8,079 nucleotides of DNA, taken from contig CANOBT010000218.1 in assembly GCA_947564305.1 (NCBI GenBank), positions 1-8,079 on the forward strand, in the 5' to 3' direction. Shown here piece by piece: positions 1 to 8,005 of this stretch. A program made the position numbers and the translations under genes. Source of the stretch: an uncultured Lachnospiraceae bacterium. Its GTDB lineage: Bacteria > Bacillota_A > Clostridia > Lachnospirales > Lachnospiraceae. Each line of letters begins with the position of its first letter. The first letter of the stretch is position 1. The notes beneath the pieces were generated by a model. The model saw nothing but the letters and a program-made list of their open reading frames with translations. It was not told the DNA's origin and ran no database searches.

Positions 1-404
1 TCCTCCTCTATCCCTGTCTCATATCCATTTCTTATATGAAGGTAATATACAATATATGCCTCATTCTTCCCTATATCCTGTCTCGTTGCTTTCTGGATAA
101 AAAGCGCCCCTGCGATCAATAGCTGCAGATAATTGAAAAGACTTTCCGGACAACTGACAGACGCCAGCAGTTCAATACCCGCCGCGATTGCCTTTTTGAA
201 ATCCATTCTGATATTTCCGAATTTATAAGAAACAGCTTCATTTCCCAGAAAAACCATCCCTTTTCTCGCATCATCCGGAATTACCATAATATAATTATCT
301 ACAATACTGTTCCCTGTACTTTCTTCTAACCCAAGCATATCAGCTTCCAGAGCCAATTTGTTCTTTAATTCATTGTCATAATCTAACGCTTCCTGCCTCG
401 TCAT
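1..404 (-). CDS. Uncharacterised protein, fourth gene of the NACHT operon (3' end outside the window)
   Basis: The reading frame is open from an ATG at 402-404 to the window edge, giving 134 residues with no stop seen. I do not recognise the family. The N-terminus (MTRQEALDYDNEL) is charged and helical-looking. A middle part reads like mixed strand and helix (DNYIMVIPDD, then GNEAVSYKFGN), followed by an alanine- and leucine-rich helical stretch around residues 70-105. That stretch could be a packed helix and is not a convincing membrane segment. No catalytic motif is visible in the portion present. Its start overlaps the stop of the metallopeptidase gene as ATGA, and an AGGAG lies 7 bases upstream of the ATG inside that gene, so translation is probably coupled. 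The tight coupling suggests it works with the peptidase, for example as a partner, substrate or regulator. That role is inference. Confidence 0.8.
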   Translation of the reverse strand, partial: MTRQEALDYDNELKNKLALEADMLGLEESTGNSIVDNYIMVIPDDARKGMVFLGNEAVSYKFGNIRMDFKKAIAAGIELLASVSCPESLFNYLQLLIAGALFIQKATRQDIGKNEAYIVYYLHIRNGYETGIEE

Positions 405-1483
405 AGCTGCTCTCCTCTCATCTGATTTCTTCTTTTTATATGAAGAACCTTATCAAGCTTCCCCTTTTCCATTTTCAGGAGTACCTGATCTTTATATTCA
501 TCATATACATCCAAAAATCCGCTATACAGATGATTCCCATCTACCGTATCGAAATCATATTCATCTTTATTAACAATCGCAAACAGCCTGTTCTTTCTGT
601 CACCCGGCAGAGGATGCTGCGGATCATAAAATCTGGTCTTATACAGCACCCTGTCTGTATAATAATATAAATCAAAGAAATCCATATACATCATGGGTGC
701 AAGGTATGTATATTCTTCCAAAATCCGCTTATCTCCATCGTTTTCTATGATAATTCTCAGCACAATATGATATGCTATCATGTCTGCATCATACTCTTCT
801 TTCTCCGGATGCCGCTCGGAATACGTTTTCCCAATGCTTGCCAGATACGCATGTGCAACCTCATGCGCCAGGCTGAAAACTACAACAGTCCAGTAACAAT
901 CCTCTGCAAGCTGCAGTATCTGCACATCGCCGGATACCAACTGCAGCAGCACATCGTTTGCATACTGTCCCTGCATTTCTCCAAAAATACAGACGTTATT
1001 CATCAGAAACAGGATATATCGGAAGCACTCACTATAAACATCCAGATTCTCAAACTCCTTTGACCATTTAAGCATGGCAAGAAAAAATGCGATCACTGTT
1101 GATTCAAACAACTCATCAATATGAACAAACGCCGGATTTTCTTTGTCGTTGTATATATAGCTGTTAATCGTCTGCTGATAGCGGTTGCTTAAGGTTATCC
1201 CATCCCCCTCATATCCGTATTCCTTTTTAAAATATTCTTTCACTACGGCAAACATGTTTTGCAGATTATATCTCTCCATGTTTTTCCGTAACTGTTCTTC
1301 TGTAAAATCGTTGGAAAAATACTGCAGCATTCTTTGGATCTCTCTTTCGCCGTCCTTCACGCTGCTTCCTCTGAATTTGAACAGGTCATACATCTGCGGA
1401 ACCATGAACTTTTCCATGAATGGTATTTCAGGCTGATTTGGAAATATATCCTTGCTATCCTTTTCCATCATTCTTGTCCTCAT
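401..1483 (-). CDS. Putative zinc metallopeptidase (HEVAH...ExxAD), third gene of the NACHT operon
   Basis: This 360-residue protein carries HEVAH at residues 207-211. It is followed about 19 residues later by EYDAD (230-234), matching the HExxH...ExxAD arrangement of gluzincin-type peptidases such as M48 and, more loosely, ImmA/IrrE-like proteins. H207, H211 and E230 would bind zinc and E208 would be catalytic. I cannot assign a named family outside this core. The roughly 200 residues before the motif and 125 after it look soluble and mainly helical, with no signal peptide. A hydrophobic patch at 129-139 (TVIAFFLAMLK) sits within a helix-rich region. The ATG at 1481-1483 has GAGG 7 bases upstream. 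The gene begins 43 bases after the DUF2806-like gene and its stop overlaps the next start by 4 bases. In this operon a cytoplasmic protease could be the effector or an activator of another component; the target is unknown. GC content is uneven and higher than in the NACHT gene in places. Confidence 0.85.
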   Translation of the reverse strand: MRTRMMEKDSKDIFPNQPEIPFMEKFMVPQMYDLFKFRGSSVKDGEREIQRMLQYFSNDFTEEQLRKNMERYNLQNMFAVVKEYFKKEYGYEGDGITLSNRYQQTINSYIYNDKENPAFVHIDELFESTVIAFFLAMLKWSKEFENLDVYSECFRYILFLMNNVCIFGEMQGQYANDVLLQLVSGDVQILQLAEDCYWTVVVFSLAHEVAHAYLASIGKTYSERHPEKEEYDADMIAYHIVLRIIIENDGDKRILEEYTYLAPMMYMDFFDLYYYTDRVLYKTRFYDPQHPLPGDRKNRLFAIVNKDEYDFDTVDGNHLYSGFLDVYDEYKDQVLLKMEKGKLDKVLHIKRRNQMRGEQL

Positions 1484-1499
1484 ATTGTTTCCTCATATT
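1477..1499 (-). repeat. Tandem 10-base repeat across the metallopeptidase start site
   Basis: AATATGAGGA occurs twice with a period of 13 bases, at 1490-1499 and 1477-1486 on the minus strand. The upstream copy supplies the GAGG that serves as ribosome binding site, and the downstream copy contains the start ATG used by the metallopeptidase. The ATG in the upstream copy is in another frame and reaches a stop after 13 codons. It may be a simple small duplication. Confidence 0.6.
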
Positions 1500-1526
1500 A
1501 TTGCCCCAAATCAAACGGCAATTCTT

Positions 1527-2498
1527 TTAGCTCTCTTCTTTCAATAAATCAGCACTTAAATCATTTTCATCCAATCGTGAAAATGCACCAACATAAAACT
1601 TCGGATTCTGCTTTTTTATTTCCTGCAGACATAATAAAGCATATTCTTCATCAGCTTCATACTCAGCAACATCATGAATGACATGAAACAGCTCTTTTCC
1701 ACTATAAGTAAGGAAATATGCTTCTCGCTGAAATAAAATCGGCTTATCATCATAGCTCATAACAACACCGCATAATTTATCATTATGAAATTCCAAGTTA
1801 TTATCTTTACTAATATAAATTGCCAAGTCATGATCTATACTAAGCGCGCCTGCCTCCAGCAAAGGCACAATATGTTCTTCATATGACAGTTTTAATTTTT
1901 GTATATACTCACGGCACTCTTGATGACCATCTTCTTCACAGAAAAAACCAGCCGAATCAATATAATATGAGTCTCCACTCTGCATGACATATCGGCACAA
2001 AAGAGAAAAGGTCTTTGCTTCTTCCGGCGGCATATTCCGAACCATATCTAATGTCCGGAGGGCGCATGATTTTGGTCTTGTAATTTCATTTGCCAATACT
2101 TTCCCCCATAATCTCTGTAGCTCATCATTACTAATATTCCCTACCGCATCAAAAAAGCGCATCAACCAGTCAAAACTAAATTTATCTTTATTGCCGCTGC
2201 TTTGCTCTGATTCTGTGTCATCGTTACGCAGATCAGCAATCACTTCGTCCGCCCGTTTGGCTACTTTTAAAAAGTTCCTGCATTTATAAAGCTCAACATA
2301 TGATAACTTTCCTTCATTTAATAATTCATTTGCAACTTTTTCAAATTCACGCGCCTTAAAAGCTTCTATTGCTTTAATATTTTCTCCTCTTCGGACAAAT
2401 AATGTTGTTATTAACGAAGATACAACGCCCTGAACGGCCGGAGAAGTTATTACTATCTTTCCTATATGTAAACCTGTGTTAAGCAGTTCCATATTCAT
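1527..2498 (-). CDS. DUF2806/TIGR03899-like protein, second gene of the NACHT operon
   Basis: A 323-residue protein of unknown function. The central block at about residues 107-160 (SFDWLMRFFDAVGNIS, then ELQRLWGKVLANE, then an RTLDMV helix and PPEEA) resembles the core of the DUF2806/TIGR03899-like family as I recall it. The late LTYSGKEL (263-270) matches that family's 'LTxxGxEL' ending. Residues 10-35 are hydrophobic (HIGKIVITSPAVQGVVSSLI) and could be one membrane helix or an amphipathic segment. An acidic, glutamine- and serine-rich linker lies around residues 90-104. I chose the ATG at 2496-2498 because GGGAGG ends 8 bases upstream; a GTG three codons earlier overlaps that ribosome binding site and cannot use it. 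Only one base separates this gene from the NACHT stop, so the two are almost certainly co-translated and likely act together. AT-rich like the NACHT gene. Family assignment comes from memory of motifs, not a search. Confidence 0.75.
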   Translation of the reverse strand: MNMELLNTGLHIGKIVITSPAVQGVVSSLITTLFVRRGENIKAIEAFKAREFEKVANELLNEGKLSYVELYKCRNFLKVAKRADEVIADLRNDDTESEQSSGNKDKFSFDWLMRFFDAVGNISNDELQRLWGKVLANEITRPKSCALRTLDMVRNMPPEEAKTFSLLCRYVMQSGDSYYIDSAGFFCEEDGHQECREYIQKLKLSYEEHIVPLLEAGALSIDHDLAIYISKDNNLEFHNDKLCGVVMSYDDKPILFQREAYFLTYSGKELFHVIHDVAEYEADEEYALLCLQEIKKQNPKFYVGAFSRLDENDLSADLLKEES

Positions 2499-2499
2499 C

Positions 2500-5277
2500 C
2501 TACTCACCTCCCTTTATCAGCAATCTCTTTTTTTCTTCACTTACGCCAGTCCAATCCGCAAACTCTAAATCTGCTTCCGCAAGCATCTCCACAATATTGA
2601 GATCATCCAGATCAAACTGCGCTATTTTTACACCATTTAACTTTGTCATTTCCATAATGCAATTTCTCCAATCAGCACTCTCTATCTCTACATTACTAAA
2701 ATCAGCCCTCGTAAGATCTGCCCCATGGAAATCCGCATCTATAAGCACCGTCTCATCAAAGTTCGCGGCAGTCAAATTGGCAGAAGCAAAATTTGTTTCT
2801 TTTAATTTTGTGCCACAAAAATAGGCTCCTTCCAAATTACTAATCTCGAAAACCGTTCTTTCCAGTAACGCTCCTGTAAAATTAGCAGCACACAACTGTG
2901 CACCGGAAAAATCTGCATCACATAAATCTGCGTTGTTAAATTCCGCTCTGTCAGCAACTCCGGAAAGCATAATACAATTCCGCATGATACAATTTCTGAA
3001 TGATGCACCCGAAATAATACTTTCTTCAAAATGACTTTCATTCAATATTGTATTATCAAATACCCACCACATCATATTTGCTTTGGAAAACTCCGCACAT
3101 GACAAATCCAACATCTCGTCTTCTGTTTTATCTGTTTCTAACCCAACAAACATCTTCAATAATTTACTTAAATTATTCTCATAAACTCGAACCTTTTCCT
3201 CTAATTCATGGTAAGAATTCACGCAAATTTTGCTGCACCGCCTATTCTCATCAGTAATAAAAAATGGATAATTCGTGTTAAATCCCTGAGTAAACACATC
3301 TGTAAGAATATCGGAAAAATGCTGTTTTGTTATTCTAACTCCATCCACTACAAAGCTTTCATTTAACAATATCTCTTCTATAAATTTAAGAATTTCATCC
3401 TCTAAAATGTTATCTGAAAAAAGATAAAGCAACATCTTTAACTGTTTCGCAGGAATCAGCTCTTTAGAATTCCTGTAGAGGAATTCAATAATCGCAACAG
3501 CCGCCAAATATTCATAAAATGTTTTATGAATAAACTCAATCTCTGACTGTTGCCAATCCATTTCATTATAAGCCTCCCGCAGGAAGAACAACAAAACCAG
3601 TTTAGATGGATTATCCTTCTTATGAAGCTGAATCCAGTTTTCACACATTTCTGCCTGTCCCATACATTGACAATAATAATAAATTGCCCGAATCGCCACG
3701 GCCCGACTATGTTCTTTATATGCACAGCCCCCTAAATATCGAAGCATTTGTTGATATTCTTTATATTCCTTTGACTTAAAATATATTTCTCGTTCTGTCT
3801 CACGGTTATACTCTCTTGTATAGATATGCCTGAATATGGTCTCATATAGTTTTGCCGTATTCTTAAAATCCTCAAATCTGCTTCCTGCATGTTTCATCGT
3901 CCAGACGACCAAAAATAACAGCAAGGGTGATTTACTTAATTCATCAAATTGTTCATTTCCCATCGGGAGCTGTTGCTCTATATGAAATGCATTCGTCAAT
4001 TTATTCCAATAAATTCCCCTTAAATCTTCCTTTAGCATTTCTTTCGGATCTTCAGCTTCTCCGGCTCGTTTTGTCAGTTCATACTCATCCAGAAAAAGCG
4101 GAAGCATCTCCAATTCTTCGCCCCTGACTTCTTCTATTGCTCTTTTCATCACCTGACTTCTCCCACTTATAATACCAGCCCACGGTATTCCCCAATCACA
4201 GTTCTCCAGCCCCCTTATCAATTCAAGAGAATTATCATATACCATGTGACGGATTTCGTCTAACCCATCTATGATCAGAAGCCTTTTTTCTTTCAGTCTT
4301 TTATTAAAAAACCACGGGTAGTGATTCTTTATATATTTTTCCAATACCGATAATGCATTCTCCTTTTCTCCAAATCCCAGGCGATGCAGCTCTATAAATA
4401 CAACAAATCCATTTGTCTTTGCAGTCGCAGTCATAGTAGCAGCAACTAACTTTACCAGGGAAGATTTTCCTATACCTGGTTCACCGTGTAAAAATAAAAG
4501 CGGTGCCTGATTTCGCTCATACCATTCCCATATATAACTTGTCGTATCCACAATAAGTGATGACTCTTTTAGTCTCCCATTCAATAAATTACGCTCTGAT
4601 AATTTACCATGAAGCGAAATATAAATCTGCTTCAGACAAATATCCTCTTTTAATATCTGCTGGAATATTAAATCCCTTAAACGTTTCTGTGATTCCAGCC
4701 TTTCTTTTTCTTCTTCCTCTACCATCTGTATTTGTTGTTGACCTACATAATAAGAAACCTTTTCATCGATTTTTTCATCTCTCTTCTGTATCTGCTCATG
4801 AAAATCCTGCGTCGTATGTAATATGTACCACCGGTACAATAACTCTCTTTTTATGATCTCTTCATAAAACTGCCTGTACCACACTTCTAAATTTCTCTGT
4901 GCAACATAATATGGATTTACCTGAAGCAATGCAGCTTTCACATCTCCTTCTGTTAAATGTCCATTTTCTATCCAGGTTCCATAAAGCATTTCACAGGCGG
5001 CTGCCATTTGTTCCTGCTTATTTACACACAATCCCATATATCTTTTTACACTGGCTTCTATTGCATCATAAAGCTGGCCCTCCAGTGATTCTTCCTTTCC
5101 TGGCAGCCTGCGCTTGATTTCTTTCCACAATAATCCGCTTCCAATGTCTGCGGATTTTGATATTACATAGTCTCCAACCGAAAAGCCTAAAAGCTCAACA
5201 CCAAGCAATGCGGCTATTCCTGTCACGATTCCCACCTCTTTTACTAGTTCAATTAAAATAATTGCTCGGAAAGTCAT
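2500..5277 (-). CDS. NACHT-type STAND NTPase with C-terminal pentapeptide repeats
   Basis: A 925-residue protein built like a bacterial NLR-related (bNACHT) sensor. Numbered from the chosen start, residues 1-150 are an unassigned N-terminus with a hydrophobic stretch at about 5-40. A charged, coiled-coil-like segment covers about 160-205 (VEEEEKERLESQK). The NACHT NTPase begins near 255: Walker A GEPGIGKSS at 265-273, Walker B LLIIDGLDEI at 333-342 with the NACHT-typical DGxDE, and a sensor-like IISGRS at 369-374. FIHKTFYEYLAA at 582-593 matches the conserved helix found C-terminal to NACHT domains. Residues 723-910 are pentapeptide repeats of the A(D/N)LxxAxF type, expected to form a right-handed beta helix. 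bNACHT proteins are known antiphage proteins; that this one is, and that the repeats sense the trigger, is inference. The N-terminus would hold the effector or adaptor part but matches no nuclease, TIR or protease motif I know. The ATG at 5275-5277 is preferred over GTG 5301, which has no ribosome binding site. First gene of the four-gene operon; AT-rich. Confidence 0.93.
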   Translation of the reverse strand: MTFRAIILIELVKEVGIVTGIAALLGVELLGFSVGDYVISKSADIGSGLLWKEIKRRLPGKEESLEGQLYDAIEASVKRYMGLCVNKQEQMAAACEMLYGTWIENGHLTEGDVKAALLQVNPYYVAQRNLEVWYRQFYEEIIKRELLYRWYILHTTQDFHEQIQKRDEKIDEKVSYYVGQQQIQMVEEEEKERLESQKRLRDLIFQQILKEDICLKQIYISLHGKLSERNLLNGRLKESSLIVDTTSYIWEWYERNQAPLLFLHGEPGIGKSSLVKLVAATMTATAKTNGFVVFIELHRLGFGEKENALSVLEKYIKNHYPWFFNKRLKEKRLLIIDGLDEIRHMVYDNSLELIRGLENCDWGIPWAGIISGRSQVMKRAIEEVRGEELEMLPLFLDEYELTKRAGEAEDPKEMLKEDLRGIYWNKLTNAFHIEQQLPMGNEQFDELSKSPLLLFLVVWTMKHAGSRFEDFKNTAKLYETIFRHIYTREYNRETEREIYFKSKEYKEYQQMLRYLGGCAYKEHSRAVAIRAIYYYCQCMGQAEMCENWIQLHKKDNPSKLVLLFFLREAYNEMDWQQSEIEFIHKTFYEYLAAVAIIEFLYRNSKELIPAKQLKMLLYLFSDNILEDEILKFIEEILLNESFVVDGVRITKQHFSDILTDVFTQGFNTNYPFFITDENRRCSKICVNSYHELEEKVRVYENNLSKLLKMFVGLETDKTEDEMLDLSCAEFSKANMMWWVFDNTILNESHFEESIISGASFRNCIMRNCIMLSGVADRAEFNNADLCDADFSGAQLCAANFTGALLERTVFEISNLEGAYFCGTKLKETNFASANLTAANFDETVLIDADFHGADLTRADFSNVEIESADWRNCIMEMTKLNGVKIAQFDLDDLNIVEMLAEADLEFADWTGVSEEKKRLLIKGGE
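2505..2512 (-). promoter_or_regulatory. Ribosome binding site that fixes the start of the DUF2806-like gene
   Basis: GGGAGGTG lies inside the last codons of the NACHT gene, 8 bases before the ATG at 2498 (counted from GGAGG). It rules out the GTG at 2505-2507, which falls inside the site itself. The NACHT stop TAG sits between the site and the ATG, an arrangement typical of terminating-ribosome coupling. Confidence 0.75.
2524..3111 (-). other. Pentapeptide-repeat coding region of the NACHT gene
   Basis: This stretch codes for about 190 residues with a five-residue period, seen as runs such as ADLCDADFSGAQLCAANFTG and, later, ANLTAANFDE and ADFHGADLTRADF. Leucine, phenylalanine or isoleucine recurs every fifth position, with alanine or a small residue two positions before. 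The first repeats (SCAEFSKANM, then ESHFEESIISGASF) are looser, and the last (AEADLEFADWTG) ends 13 residues before the stop. This is the expected signature of a stacked beta-helix domain. Confidence 0.85.
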
Positions 5278-5281
5278 TTTG

Positions 5282-5286
5282 CCTCT
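5282..5286 (-). promoter_or_regulatory. Ribosome binding site supporting the ATG start of the NACHT gene
   Basis: AGAGG followed by CAAA and the ATG at 5275-5277. The spacing of 4 bases is a little short but workable. The longer GTG form starting at 5301 has only an A-rich run upstream of it and sits a few bases after a -10-like box, so it would have almost no leader. Confidence 0.55.
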
Positions 5287-5307
5287 ATATCCTAATATCA
5301 CTTTTTT

Positions 5308-5318
5308 ATTGTATCATA
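5308..5318 (-). promoter_or_regulatory. Candidate -10 region of the NACHT operon promoter
   Basis: On the minus strand two overlapping boxes resemble a sigma-A -10 element: TATGAT (5313-5318, five of six to consensus) and TACAAT (5308-5313). I could not find a good -35 box at 16-18 bases from either, so this is a weak candidate. Transcription starting near 5300 would give a leader of about 20-30 bases before the ATG at 5277. Activation by another factor would fit the poor -35, but that is speculation. Confidence 0.3.
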
Positions 5319-5408
5319 TTTTCACTACAATTCACCTAAAATCTTTATTTGTAAAAATATAAGGTAACTTCCGAAGCAATCTGCATTCAAAAAGTGCAAA
5401 ACGCAAAA

Positions 5409-5434
5409 TTGCCAACGAGAATGTCCGCTGGCAA
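5409..5434 (-). terminator. Hairpin terminator after the exporter/tocopherol-cyclase-like operon
   Basis: On the minus strand TTGCCAGCG and CGTTGGCAA form a 9-base-pair stem (one G-T pair) around the 8-base loop GACATTCT, followed by TTTTGCG and then more T-rich sequence. The T run is short and interrupted, so termination may be partial. It lies 64 bases after the stop of the tocopherol-cyclase-like gene and about 130 bases before the NACHT start, and therefore separates the two operons. The same stem can form on the plus strand, but no gene points that way. Confidence 0.6.
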
Positions 5435-5497
5435 ATCAATTTTATATGAGACTAATAAGAATTCATTATAATTAATTTATAAACACTGTAATAACAT

Positions 5498-6343
5498 TTA
5501 CTCCAATAATTCATATTCAAAAGAAGCCCTGTCCGTCGTAAAAGAAAAGATAGGGTATTCTCCTTTTCGGAATCTGTAAAATGCCCGGCAGGCCGCATTT
5601 TCATGAATCGTCCTTACCATATCCCCATTAGCCGGAGCATTCAGAGGGCTTCTGACCTTTTCTAACAGCCTGGCTTCTAATTCCAGATTCCCCTGCACAA
5701 TCCGAAGCCTCCCATTCCGAACCTGCACCGCTTTTGCCCCCAGATAAGTTGCCAGCCGGTATTCTCTGCCCTTCCACAGCACAACACCAATGATGCCCCG
5801 AAAATGAAAGCCGGCAACCGGGACATCTGCCACAGCCAGCATCAGCGAGCCTCCCGGAAAGCTGCATTGCGTCCACGCATATTCCCTGGGAAAAGAATGT
5901 CCTTCGTCTCCCTCCCAGTATCCCACTGCATTCTGAAACAGATATTCCTTCCCATTCACCTTCATCCTTCCATAGACCAAATGCCGCATACTCCGCACAC
6001 TATGCCGGCATTCCAGGAAAGGAAATATGGAAAACGGCCCCATGATGTCATATTTCAAAGGAAAAAGGGAGCCAAACCTCAATTCTCCGCTTATATCCAG
6101 CTTTGGCGTATGTACTGCCAGAAGAATCCCCCTCTCTCCAAACCGACTCCTTCCGATCCAAATATCCTTTCCTGTCCGGTGGAATGCCGCAGCAGGATAA
6201 TCAACGTTCCACGCATGATTCTCCGTAATGACCTGAATGGAACAAGATTTCTTTTGTCCTGACCTGTGAACCGCAGGGATGATTGACAAGGTCTGGGTTT
6301 CCGACTGGCATTTAAAATACCAGCCGTAAAAATAATTGCGCAT
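5498..6343 (-). CDS. Tocopherol-cyclase-family protein (PF14249-like)
   Basis: A 281-residue protein that resembles the tocopherol cyclase family, whose plant and cyanobacterial members close the chromanol ring of vitamin E precursors. Firmicutes make no tocopherol as far as is known, so the substrate here is unknown. Family features, numbered from the chosen start: YFYGWYFKCQ at 4-13, MGPFSIFPFLECRHSVRSM at about 101-119, YWEGDEGHSFP at 142-152 where I recall YIEKDWGxSFP in most members, and ATYLGAKAV at 198-206. No signal peptide or membrane segment is seen, so it is probably cytoplasmic. I chose the ATG at 6341-6343, preceded by GGAGG with 9-base spacing. A GTG at 6419-6421 would add 26 residues and overlap the permease by 10 bases, but it has no good ribosome binding site and the family motif begins right after the shorter start. 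It follows the permease by 68 bases and probably belongs to the exporter operon. Confidence 0.85.
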   Translation of the reverse strand: MRNYFYGWYFKCQSETQTLSIIPAVHRSGQKKSCSIQVITENHAWNVDYPAAAFHRTGKDIWIGRSRFGERGILLAVHTPKLDISGELRFGSLFPLKYDIMGPFSIFPFLECRHSVRSMRHLVYGRMKVNGKEYLFQNAVGYWEGDEGHSFPREYAWTQCSFPGGSLMLAVADVPVAGFHFRGIIGVVLWKGREYRLATYLGAKAVQVRNGRLRIVQGNLELEARLLEKVRSPLNAPANGDMVRTIHENAACRAFYRFRKGEYPIFSFTTDRASFEYELLE

Positions 6344-6351
6344 ATCTTCTG

Positions 6352-6357
6352 CCCTCC
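6352..6357 (-). promoter_or_regulatory. Ribosome binding site that favours the short start of the tocopherol-cyclase-like gene
   Basis: GGAGGG lies 9 bases (counted from GGAGG) before the ATG at 6341-6343. The in-frame GTG at 6421 has only GGTGAAATG-like sequence upstream, a poor match. This supports the 281-residue form. Confidence 0.6.
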
Positions 6358-6411
6358 ATAGAAAGATACCTTTATTTTTCCACAAATGGCTTTCATTTAT
6401 ACGCAGCTCCC

Positions 6412-7155
6412 TTATTCCCACTTAAAACATTTCACCGCAATTCCCATGCAAACAATGGTAACAACTACCATAACCAATACCGGCTGCCACAGATTCCCCG
6501 CCGGCAGTCCAAGCGAAGCCGATTTCATAAGCTGTATCCCCTGTGTCAGAGGGAACAATCTGACAATCTTCTGCATCATCCCCGGCATAACCTCAAGCGG
6601 AACGGTTGCCCCTGAGAATATCAGCATTGGAAAATACAGGACGCTGGCTATCACACTGGCTATTTTCGTGTCTTTTGCAATCCCGCCTACCATCATACCG
6701 ATACTTAAGGTAGAAACCAATGTAAGAAGCCAGCTCCCAATAAATGCAGGCCAGCTCCCGCGAAGAGCCACTCCCCAGAAGCAGGCGGCTGCCGGGAAGA
6801 GAAGAACCATAGAAGCAAGAGCATATAATACATAAATCGTAAATTCTACCACCAGCAACATAACCGGGCTTACAGGAGTCACCTGAAAACGTTTCAGGAT
6901 TTTACGTTCCCGGTATTCCGATACCACAATCGGCAGACCCATAAGGCCCCCGGCACAGATTGAAATCGTACACACCGCACTCATAGACTGTTCCAGAAAT
7001 GTATATTCTGCTCCGGGAAAAGCCGGCTTGGACTGGTAAATAATTCCAAGGACGGCCAACACCACTACCGGCATAATTACCGCAAAAATAACCATATTCA
7101 TGTTTCGTATATTCAATTTCAGTTCTGTTTTCAAAAGCTTTGTAAATGTCCTCAT
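6412..7155 (-). CDS. ABC-2 type transporter permease
   Basis: A 247-residue integral membrane protein with about six predicted hydrophobic segments: roughly 21-40, 57-78, 99-122, 138-158, 166-184 and 223-241. Between the second and third lies the cytoplasmic motif ExRERKILKRFQVTPVSP, typical of ABC-2 exporter permeases (drug, bacteriocin and polyketide exporters of the BcrA/DrrAB kind). FPMLIFSGATVPLEVMP at 175-191 is the other hallmark, the short re-entrant loop before the last segment. It would form the channel as a homodimer with two copies of the ATPase encoded just before it. The ATG at 7153-7155 overlaps the ATPase stop as ATGA, and GGAGG lies 7 bases upstream. Substrate cannot be told from sequence; export of a lipid-like or antibiotic molecule is the family norm. 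Length is usual for the family and no defect is visible. Confidence 0.92.
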   Translation of the reverse strand: MRTFTKLLKTELKLNIRNMNMVIFAVIMPVVVLAVLGIIYQSKPAFPGAEYTFLEQSMSAVCTISICAGGLMGLPIVVSEYRERKILKRFQVTPVSPVMLLVVEFTIYVLYALASMVLLFPAAACFWGVALRGSWPAFIGSWLLTLVSTLSIGMMVGGIAKDTKIASVIASVLYFPMLIFSGATVPLEVMPGMMQKIVRLFPLTQGIQLMKSASLGLPAGNLWQPVLVMVVVTIVCMGIAVKCFKWE

Positions 7156-7883
7156 ACATCTGCCTCCTCATCTGAAAATTCTAAATAAGCGTCCTCAAAT
7201 TTTTCACATCCGCTCTGTTCTTTTGCCTGCTCTACGGTGCCGCAAAATACTGGTTTCCCTTTCTTCAGGATACAGATCTCATCACAGAGCGCTTCCACCT
7301 CATCCATAAAATGCGAAGTGAGGAATATAGTCAGCCCCTGCATTTTTAGCTCTTCCAGAATCTTCCATACCGTCCGCCTTGCCTTGGCATCAAGCCCAGT
7401 TGTCAGCTCGTCTAAGAATACCAGCTCTGGCGACGGGATAAGTGCCAGGACAATAAACAGCCTCTGTCGTTCACCTCCGGACAGACTTTTTACCGCATTC
7501 TTTTGCTTGTCTCCGATTCCGAACCGCTCACAGAGCTCCCTCCAGTCAGCCGGATTATCATATAGACATGCGATTTCCTCGCATATCTCGGAAACCTTAA
7601 TCTCCGGCTGATAATCTCCTTCCTGGAACTGGACGCCTACCTTTTGGAACAATGCCCGCCGTTCTTTTCTTGGGTCACACCCCAGCACAAGAGCCGTTCC
7701 CTGTTCTGCACGCTTAGTTCCCAAGATACATTCAATCGTTGTACTCTTCCCCGCACCGTTTGCCCCCAGCAGCCCAAAGACCGTGCCGTTCTTAACAGAA
7801 AGATTCAAGCCGTCCAACACCTTTTTCCCATTATAGATTTTCGTAAGGCCGCTTACTCTGATGGCTTCTTTCGCTTTTCCCAT
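7152..7883 (-). CDS. ABC transporter ATP-binding protein (exporter type)
   Basis: A 243-residue cytoplasmic ATPase of the BcrA/CcmA class that powers the ABC-2 permease encoded next. Walker A GANGAGKST at 40-48, Q-loop glutamine in GVQFQEGD near 85, signature LSGGERQR at 134-141, Walker B LVFLDE at 154-159 and the switch histidine H191 in LTSHFMDE are all present, so it should be active. The residue after the catalytic glutamate is leucine (DELTTGLD), where most members have proline (DEPTTGLD); this is unusual but unlikely to stop catalysis. The start ATG at 7881-7883 has AAGGAG at ideal spacing. An in-frame extension upstream to 7982 adds 33 residues that match nothing in the family and crosses the promoter, so I reject it. 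First gene of the exporter operon. Confidence 0.94.
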   Translation of the reverse strand: MGKAKEAIRVSGLTKIYNGKKVLDGLNLSVKNGTVFGLLGANGAGKSTTIECILGTKRAEQGTALVLGCDPRKERRALFQKVGVQFQEGDYQPEIKVSEICEEIACLYDNPADWRELCERFGIGDKQKNAVKSLSGGERQRLFIVLALIPSPELVFLDELTTGLDAKARRTVWKILEELKMQGLTIFLTSHFMDEVEALCDEICILKKGKPVFCGTVEQAKEQSGCEKFEDAYLEFSDEEADV

Positions 7884-7889
7884 TTTTAT

Positions 7890-7895
7890 CTCCTT
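7890..7895 (-). promoter_or_regulatory. Ribosome binding site of the ABC ATPase gene
   Basis: AAGGAG lies 6 bases before the ATG at 7881-7883 and fixes that start against the longer in-frame reading from 7982. Confidence 0.75.
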
Positions 7896-7918
7896 TCTTA
7901 TTCCTGTTTTCAGATTGC

Positions 7919-7927
7919 AGTATAGCA
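7919..7927 (-). promoter_or_regulatory. Probable extended -10 promoter of the exporter operon
   Basis: The minus strand reads TGCTATACT, a TGn extension plus a -10 box with five of six consensus bases. Transcription would start near 7912, giving a leader of about 28 bases with the ribosome binding site. The -35 position at 17-base spacing (7942-7947, GAGAAG) is poor, which is acceptable for an extended -10 promoter or one that needs an activator. Confidence 0.5.
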
Positions 7928-7937
7928 TTACCCGTAA
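7928..7937 (-). promoter_or_regulatory. Small palindrome next to the -10 box, possible operator
   Basis: TTAC-GG-GTAA is an inverted repeat lying directly upstream of the extended -10 element, in the spacer where MerR-type activators or simple repressors bind. Ten bases are few and could occur by chance. No regulator gene is in the window; one could lie beyond 8079. Confidence 0.25.
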
Positions 7938-8005
7938 ATATCTTCTCGACTTTTTTTGGCATGTTTGAAAACGCAGACACAATCATACATACGGAAATAT
8001 AAAAA

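Follow-up and report, generated by a model that had tools for sequence, protein, structure and literature searches.

A stretch of 8,079 nucleotides from an uncultured Lachnospiraceae bacterium (assembly GCA_947564305.1, contig CANOBT010000218.1), hereafter the window, carries four open reading frames (ORFs) that a first-pass annotation had read as one operon encoding a dedicated and possibly undescribed conflict system. All four lie on the minus strand, as do the features located below within and just in front of them, and encode a NACHT-pentapeptide protein, a DUF2806 protein, a HExxH zincin (PEP) and a fourth protein, G4. The NACHT gene ends at 2500 and the ATG of the DUF2806 gene lies at 2498 (a 1-base gap), a 43-base gap lies between the end of the DUF2806 gene (1527) and the PEP start (1483), and the stop of PEP and the start of G4 share an ATGA overlap read in the sequence at 401..404. 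The spacing described in the annotation was confirmed throughout, as were the identities of the first three genes, with the NACHT-pentapeptide and DUF2806 proteins above Pfam cut-offs. By eye, a GAGG sequence is found a few bases 5' of the NACHT ATG at 5277. A terminator-like hairpin with T residues (5409..5434) stands between the operon and the genes upstream of it. Seven terminator-like sites were found in positions 1-5700, compared with 2.9 in shuffled sequences; promoter-like sites were at chance level (19 against 20.2 expected). The spacing in itself points to a shared transcript of the four genes.

PEP and G4 are one unit, since G4 follows PEP, their frames overlap, their divergence matches and natural fusions of the two exist. 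In a scan of species genomes, G4 was located directly after PEP at 23 of 26 loci, and at the three loci where it is missing (L024, L025 and L026) PEP itself is shortened or a fragment. At 21/21 loci measured the PEP and G4 frames overlap, sharing 4 to 35 bases; this set omits L015 (nearly a duplicate of L016) and L019 (PEP rearranged), and in it the G4 start was placed where it aligned with that of the window G4. Pairwise distances of PEP and G4 are correlated (r 0.939; 0/5000 permutations as high), although shared ancestry of the genomes partly raises this value. Two fusions were identified, P0084 on 28 contigs and P0091 on one. In the family-level sample, PEP was matched in 3/378 genomes and G4 in 3/378, both only in G006, which is the centre of that sample and was already known to carry the pair; these counts suggest that PEP-G4 is sparse, like mobile accessory genes. 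As far as literature searches show, the pair seems undescribed.

The fourth protein, left as unknown by the first-pass annotation, is therefore a conserved partner of PEP. The G4 frame (1..404, start ATG 404) is cut by the window edge, and the cut protein had no match in a Pfam scan. Its relatives are 180-192 amino acids long and have a predicted C-terminal winged helix, in a region that for the window G4 falls outside the window; a helix region of G4 is moderately hydrophobic (Kyte-Doolittle value 1.33 over 19 residues). At L019 (9786-10732), PEP has its 5' part in the opposite orientation to the remainder, and an intact G4 stands behind it.

The four genes together are not a recurrent system within the DNA examined. 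The NACHT and DUF2806 genes adjoin PEP at one of the 26 PEP loci, and there only as a decayed relic. Among 40 DUF2806 loci (39 distinct places, 24 viral contigs, with genome loci covering about 1.5 kb on each side), counted without the closest relatives of 86-99% identity, the other three window proteins, the NACHT protein included, were unmatched at E <= 0.001. Of the 15 genomes that carry PEP, whole or as a remnant, one (G005) has a full-length NACHT relative (53% identity), with neither DUF2806 nor PEP in the 20 kb read around it; this genome also carries PEP-G4, on a separate contig (L008). PEP-G4, NACHT and DUF2806 are thus each shown to occur without the others. A conflict role remains plausible for every gene, but within the DNA examined the unity of the four proposed in the annotation does not stand, the genes being rarely neighbours. 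Its suggestion that the set may be undescribed fared similarly: none of the four proteins was strongly matched in PADLOC-DB 2.0.0 (2023), G4 being cut at the window edge, but the four genes do not recur together. The best matches in that database were of NACHT to TRIP13 (0.0015) and of PEP to Lit (0.002), and DUF2806 and the cut G4 had zero matches. The real unit is apparently PEP-G4 and not all four genes, and it seems that a portable protease pair has docked behind a NACHT-DUF2806 pair.

By its motifs and homologs, PEP (401..1483, alternative start 1468) is a zincin of the Lit/M48/M78 kind. Both the HExxH motif and the downstream ExxAD-type ligand of Lit/Peptidase U49 are present and aligned with Lit: in the zinc-binding HEVAH motif (residues 207-211, 851..865) H207, E208 and H211 are invariant in 21/21 members, and so are E229, E230, A233 and D234 of the EEYDAD motif in the third-ligand region (residues 229-234, 782..799). 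A HPxxxxR motif (residues 290-296, 596..616) likewise aligns with Lit, so that PEP has the same HExxH, EExxAD, HPxxxxR order as this phage exclusion peptidase (Pfam U49) of the Escherichia coli e14 prophage, which cleaves EF-Tu. A protein search returned 277 PEP relatives, and PF10463.16 (Peptidase U49) was precomputed on 114/120 among the matches listed. PEP nevertheless differs from Lit in that its match to the Lit profile is weak, and no G4 match was seen within the 9 kb of strain MG1655 DNA that surrounds lit. Membership of PEP in the Lit family is, judged from sequence, suggestive but not settled. PEP relatives are labelled by PF10463.16 but were not picked up by PF10463.15 or in the local Pfam scan, hence the U49 model versions may differ in reach.

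PEP-G4 appears to be portable. Fifteen of the 26 PEP loci are from Lachnospiraceae by record title, and PEP relatives occur on plasmids and in a prophage. Ten proteins preceding PEP at nine loci are varied, with a Pfam family assigned to seven (methyltransferase, DUF4885, subtilase, AgrB, sugar transferase, phosphoribosyltransferase domain and integrase). The wider neighbour set comprised 88 proteins from 22 loci (L015 again left out), hand-picked nearest first from 178 candidate ORFs, and included matches to integrase (4), recombinase (2), resolvase (2) and MobL (2). The control set comprised 88 of 92 control ORFs from 9 of 13 regions of the same genomes, the other four contigs being too short. 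At E <= 1e-30, 52 families were matched in the neighbour set compared with 19 in the control set; among the matches listed, the former include type I restriction-modification, Wadjet I, ShosA, HEC-06/Orf5, Stk2 and mad2, and the latter Wadjet II A-D, homing endonuclease, reverse transcriptase and Cas1. At L010, PEP is preceded, after a gap of 52 bases, by three genes with the sizes of a type I restriction set, the type I matches being assigned to this locus by gene size and order and not by a gene-by-gene scan. At L022, the gene directly before PEP is a weak ShosT match (7.7e-8), with a ShosA match within the same neighbour set, and at L004 a strong HEC-06/Orf5 match lies about 4 kb behind G4. 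Two of the PEP neighbours have DUF4062, which is reported in PMC13174449 to be an antiphage system of the TIR-like NADase type. Likeness to known systems and single cases such as these suggest a defence role for PEP-G4.

Two distant PEP relatives, in L049 (2120-3533; a phage record from human faeces) and L103 (5862-7194), share 38% identity, and neither had a visible G4 match next to it. A different small gene overlaps the 5' end of each, and the encoded proteins (133-157 amino acids) have a hydrophobic centre and are mutually unlike by BLAST, which raises the possibility that pairing with a small protein is general and that the partner changes. An OLD-type nuclease gene also stands near the PEP relative in L049.

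The first gene of the operon (2500..5277) encodes a NACHT STAND NTPase of 925 amino acids from ATG 5277, which scored above the Pfam cut-offs for NACHT (PF05729; 30.0 bits against 26.7) and Pentapeptide (86.1 against 20.2) and has a Walker A motif (GEPGIGKS, 4462..4485) and a Walker B-like motif (LLIIDGLDE, 4255..4281). Its NACHT domain and Walker motifs are shared with the bNACHT antiphage proteins, from which it differs in its pentapeptide C-terminus, in an N-terminal domain without a match in the Pfam scan and in the DUF2806 gene behind it. According to PMC12169576, the effector domain of NACHT proteins is N-terminal and sensing is C-terminal, and the pentapeptide repeat region (residues 752-882, 2656..3048) would therefore fit as a sensing end; it may alternatively be a scaffold. 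The protein is rare, the part before the pentapeptides being matched distantly in 2/392 genomes of the order. At L108 (950-6854), the full-length NACHT-pentapeptide relative of G005 starts 28 bases behind the gene for a 1050-amino-acid P-loop protein, whose C-terminal half reads by eye as TPR repeats. The N-termini of this P-loop protein and of the window NACHT protein are homologous (37% identity, E 3e-23, over residues 36-180 numbered from GTG 5301; 4762..5196). A PDB sequence search with this common domain gave no convincing relative, and no report was found in a literature search combining NACHT, NB-ARC and TPR. That one N-terminal domain occurs in STAND-like proteins of two architectures hints at a possible action of such proteins in pairs.

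The DUF2806 protein (323 amino acids, 1527..2498) belongs to PF10987 (78.0 bits against a cut-off of 24.5), and its family was detected in 12/397 family genomes. Neighbours picked by eye, without a control, at five of the loci in these genomes are AbiH (twice), HsdM, a TIR protein and an AAA protein with RloB; unlike the window gene, those relatives for which neighbouring genes could be read have no such NACHT gene beside them. An Abi_alpha label is carried by 5/109 relatives. Seven of the 24 viral loci (L066, L067, L071, L075-L077 and L079) resemble P2-like prophages by eye, with DUF2806 adjoining a gene that we take to be ogr-like, and this position is possibly a cargo slot. Plasmid records with a DUF2806 match number 299 (215 Escherichia, 51 Salmonella). 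In L051 (4860-5489), an IncX4 plasmid, the DUF2806 gene lies directly upstream of mcr-1.1, and the papers in which DUF2806 appears in the searched literature are, by title, on mcr plasmids.

The explanation to which we incline, with slightly better than even confidence, is that two conflict modules lie side by side: NACHT-DUF2806, and behind it the translationally coupled, portable PEP-G4 pair, which would probably act in Lit-like abortive infection. The first would serve as a STAND alarm of its own, with the pentapeptide end as the sensor and either the N-terminal domain or the DUF2806 protein as the acting part. The second, a Lit/M48/M78-like zincin with its obligate partner, found mainly in Lachnospiraceae with mobile-element genes nearby and unrelated genes in front, sits 43 bases behind the first and is probably on the same transcript. 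Obligate pairing, overlap and fusion make G4 a candidate restraint or adaptor, which would keep PEP inactive or recruit its trigger or target. Upon phage infection, PEP would be freed and would cut an essential protein, aborting the infection, as Lit does with EF-Tu. By analogy with Lit, this is the likeliest action of the pair, although proteolysis by PEP, its presumed target and a regulatory role of G4 are all predicted features. A related possibility, which we regard as tentative, is that the PEP-G4 cassette docks behind defence operons that are unrelated to one another (NACHT-DUF2806 here, type I restriction-modification-like genes at L010, a ShosTA-like pair at L022) and supplies each of them with a final, abortive step, with paired STAND sensors suggested by the N-terminal domain common to both L108 proteins.

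A single four-gene system, in which NACHT senses phage, PEP and/or DUF2806 are effectors and G4 is an adaptor, would account for the tight same-strand spacing and for the fragments of NACHT, DUF2806 and PEP that genome G016 retains in the same order, with the upstream flank unmatched there. It also has a published precedent, as PMC9612521 depicts operons of bacterial gasdermins that include Peptidase U49, NACHT and NLR genes; a U49-labelled protease near a NACHT gene is likewise seen here, which makes a joint NACHT-protease system conceivable, although no gasdermin is found among the four window proteins (G4 being cut at the window edge). Such a system is unlikely: one of 26 PEP loci, a relic only, has this arrangement, DUF2806 was present in 2/16 PEP genomes, and the single NACHT relative in 15 PEP genomes is on a different contig, adjoining neither DUF2806 nor PEP. 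A mobile-element switch like ImmA/ImmR, in which PEP would cut a repressor and the winged-helix G4 would bind DNA or be that repressor, is quite unlikely, even though M78/IrrE is the best Pfam likeness across PEP members (21/21, best 1.6e-5), mobile-element matches occur among the 88 neighbours and, as in ImmA/IrrE (M78) regulator pairs, a HExxH zincin stands beside a protein predicted to contain a winged helix. The window PEP scores below the M78 cut-off, no XRE-type or other helix-turn-helix family was matched when the PEP alignment (fusion P0091 included) was scanned, and the genes directly before PEP are varied. It is very unlikely that G4 is a PEP substrate from which cutting frees an active fragment, as with a bacterial gasdermin and its protease. 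Obligate pairing, co-divergence, the moderately hydrophobic helix region and the gasdermin operon logic in PMC9612521 fit such a role, but both parts remain one chain in the fusions, the hydrophobic stretch falls short of a usual membrane segment and the cut G4 has no gasdermin match.

Several observations weigh against the two-module explanation itself. The window PEP does not reach the M78/IrrE cut-off (PF06114; 17.1 against 22 bits), U49 was unmatched in local Pfam scans of the window PEP and the PEP alignment, and comparison of PEP with Lit by hhalign gave probabilities of 4.5% (one Lit sequence), 16% and 43% (seven). PF10463.15 had no match in the PEP-carrying G006, nor in any control genome, and this search is hence a weak one. 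Separate remnants also occur, of G4 with stops in G284 (PEP unmatched) and of PEP in G267 (G4 unmatched). Enrichment of known defence genes near PEP, proposed as a check in the first-pass annotation, was not shown against the control and is unconvincing: about 4 of 22 loci have a strongly matched named system compared with 1 to 4 of 9 controls, as counted by gene size and order with matches not resolved per protein. In the G016 relic (L026, 8682-10114), the remains of NACHT (34 amino acids, 88%), DUF2806 and PEP (38 amino acids, 92%) stand in operon order, with a small toxin-antitoxin-like gene pair seen by eye between DUF2806 and PEP. The 20-kb locus has no DNA match to the window's upstream flank, and the NACHT-DUF2806-PEP block thus existed in two settings. 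Finally, NACHT-DUF2806 is a candidate, rather than an established, recurring pair.

The two-module explanation replaces a guessed four-gene system with a two-gene one that can be tested with two genes. A coupled pair of a Lit-motif protease and its partner in gut Lachnospiraceae would, if true, extend protease-based abortive infection. Outside the operon, positions 5498-7982 of the window encode an ABC transporter ATPase, a permease and a tocopherol-cyclase-like protein, the last identified by Pfam at 36.4 bits against a cut-off of 26.6.
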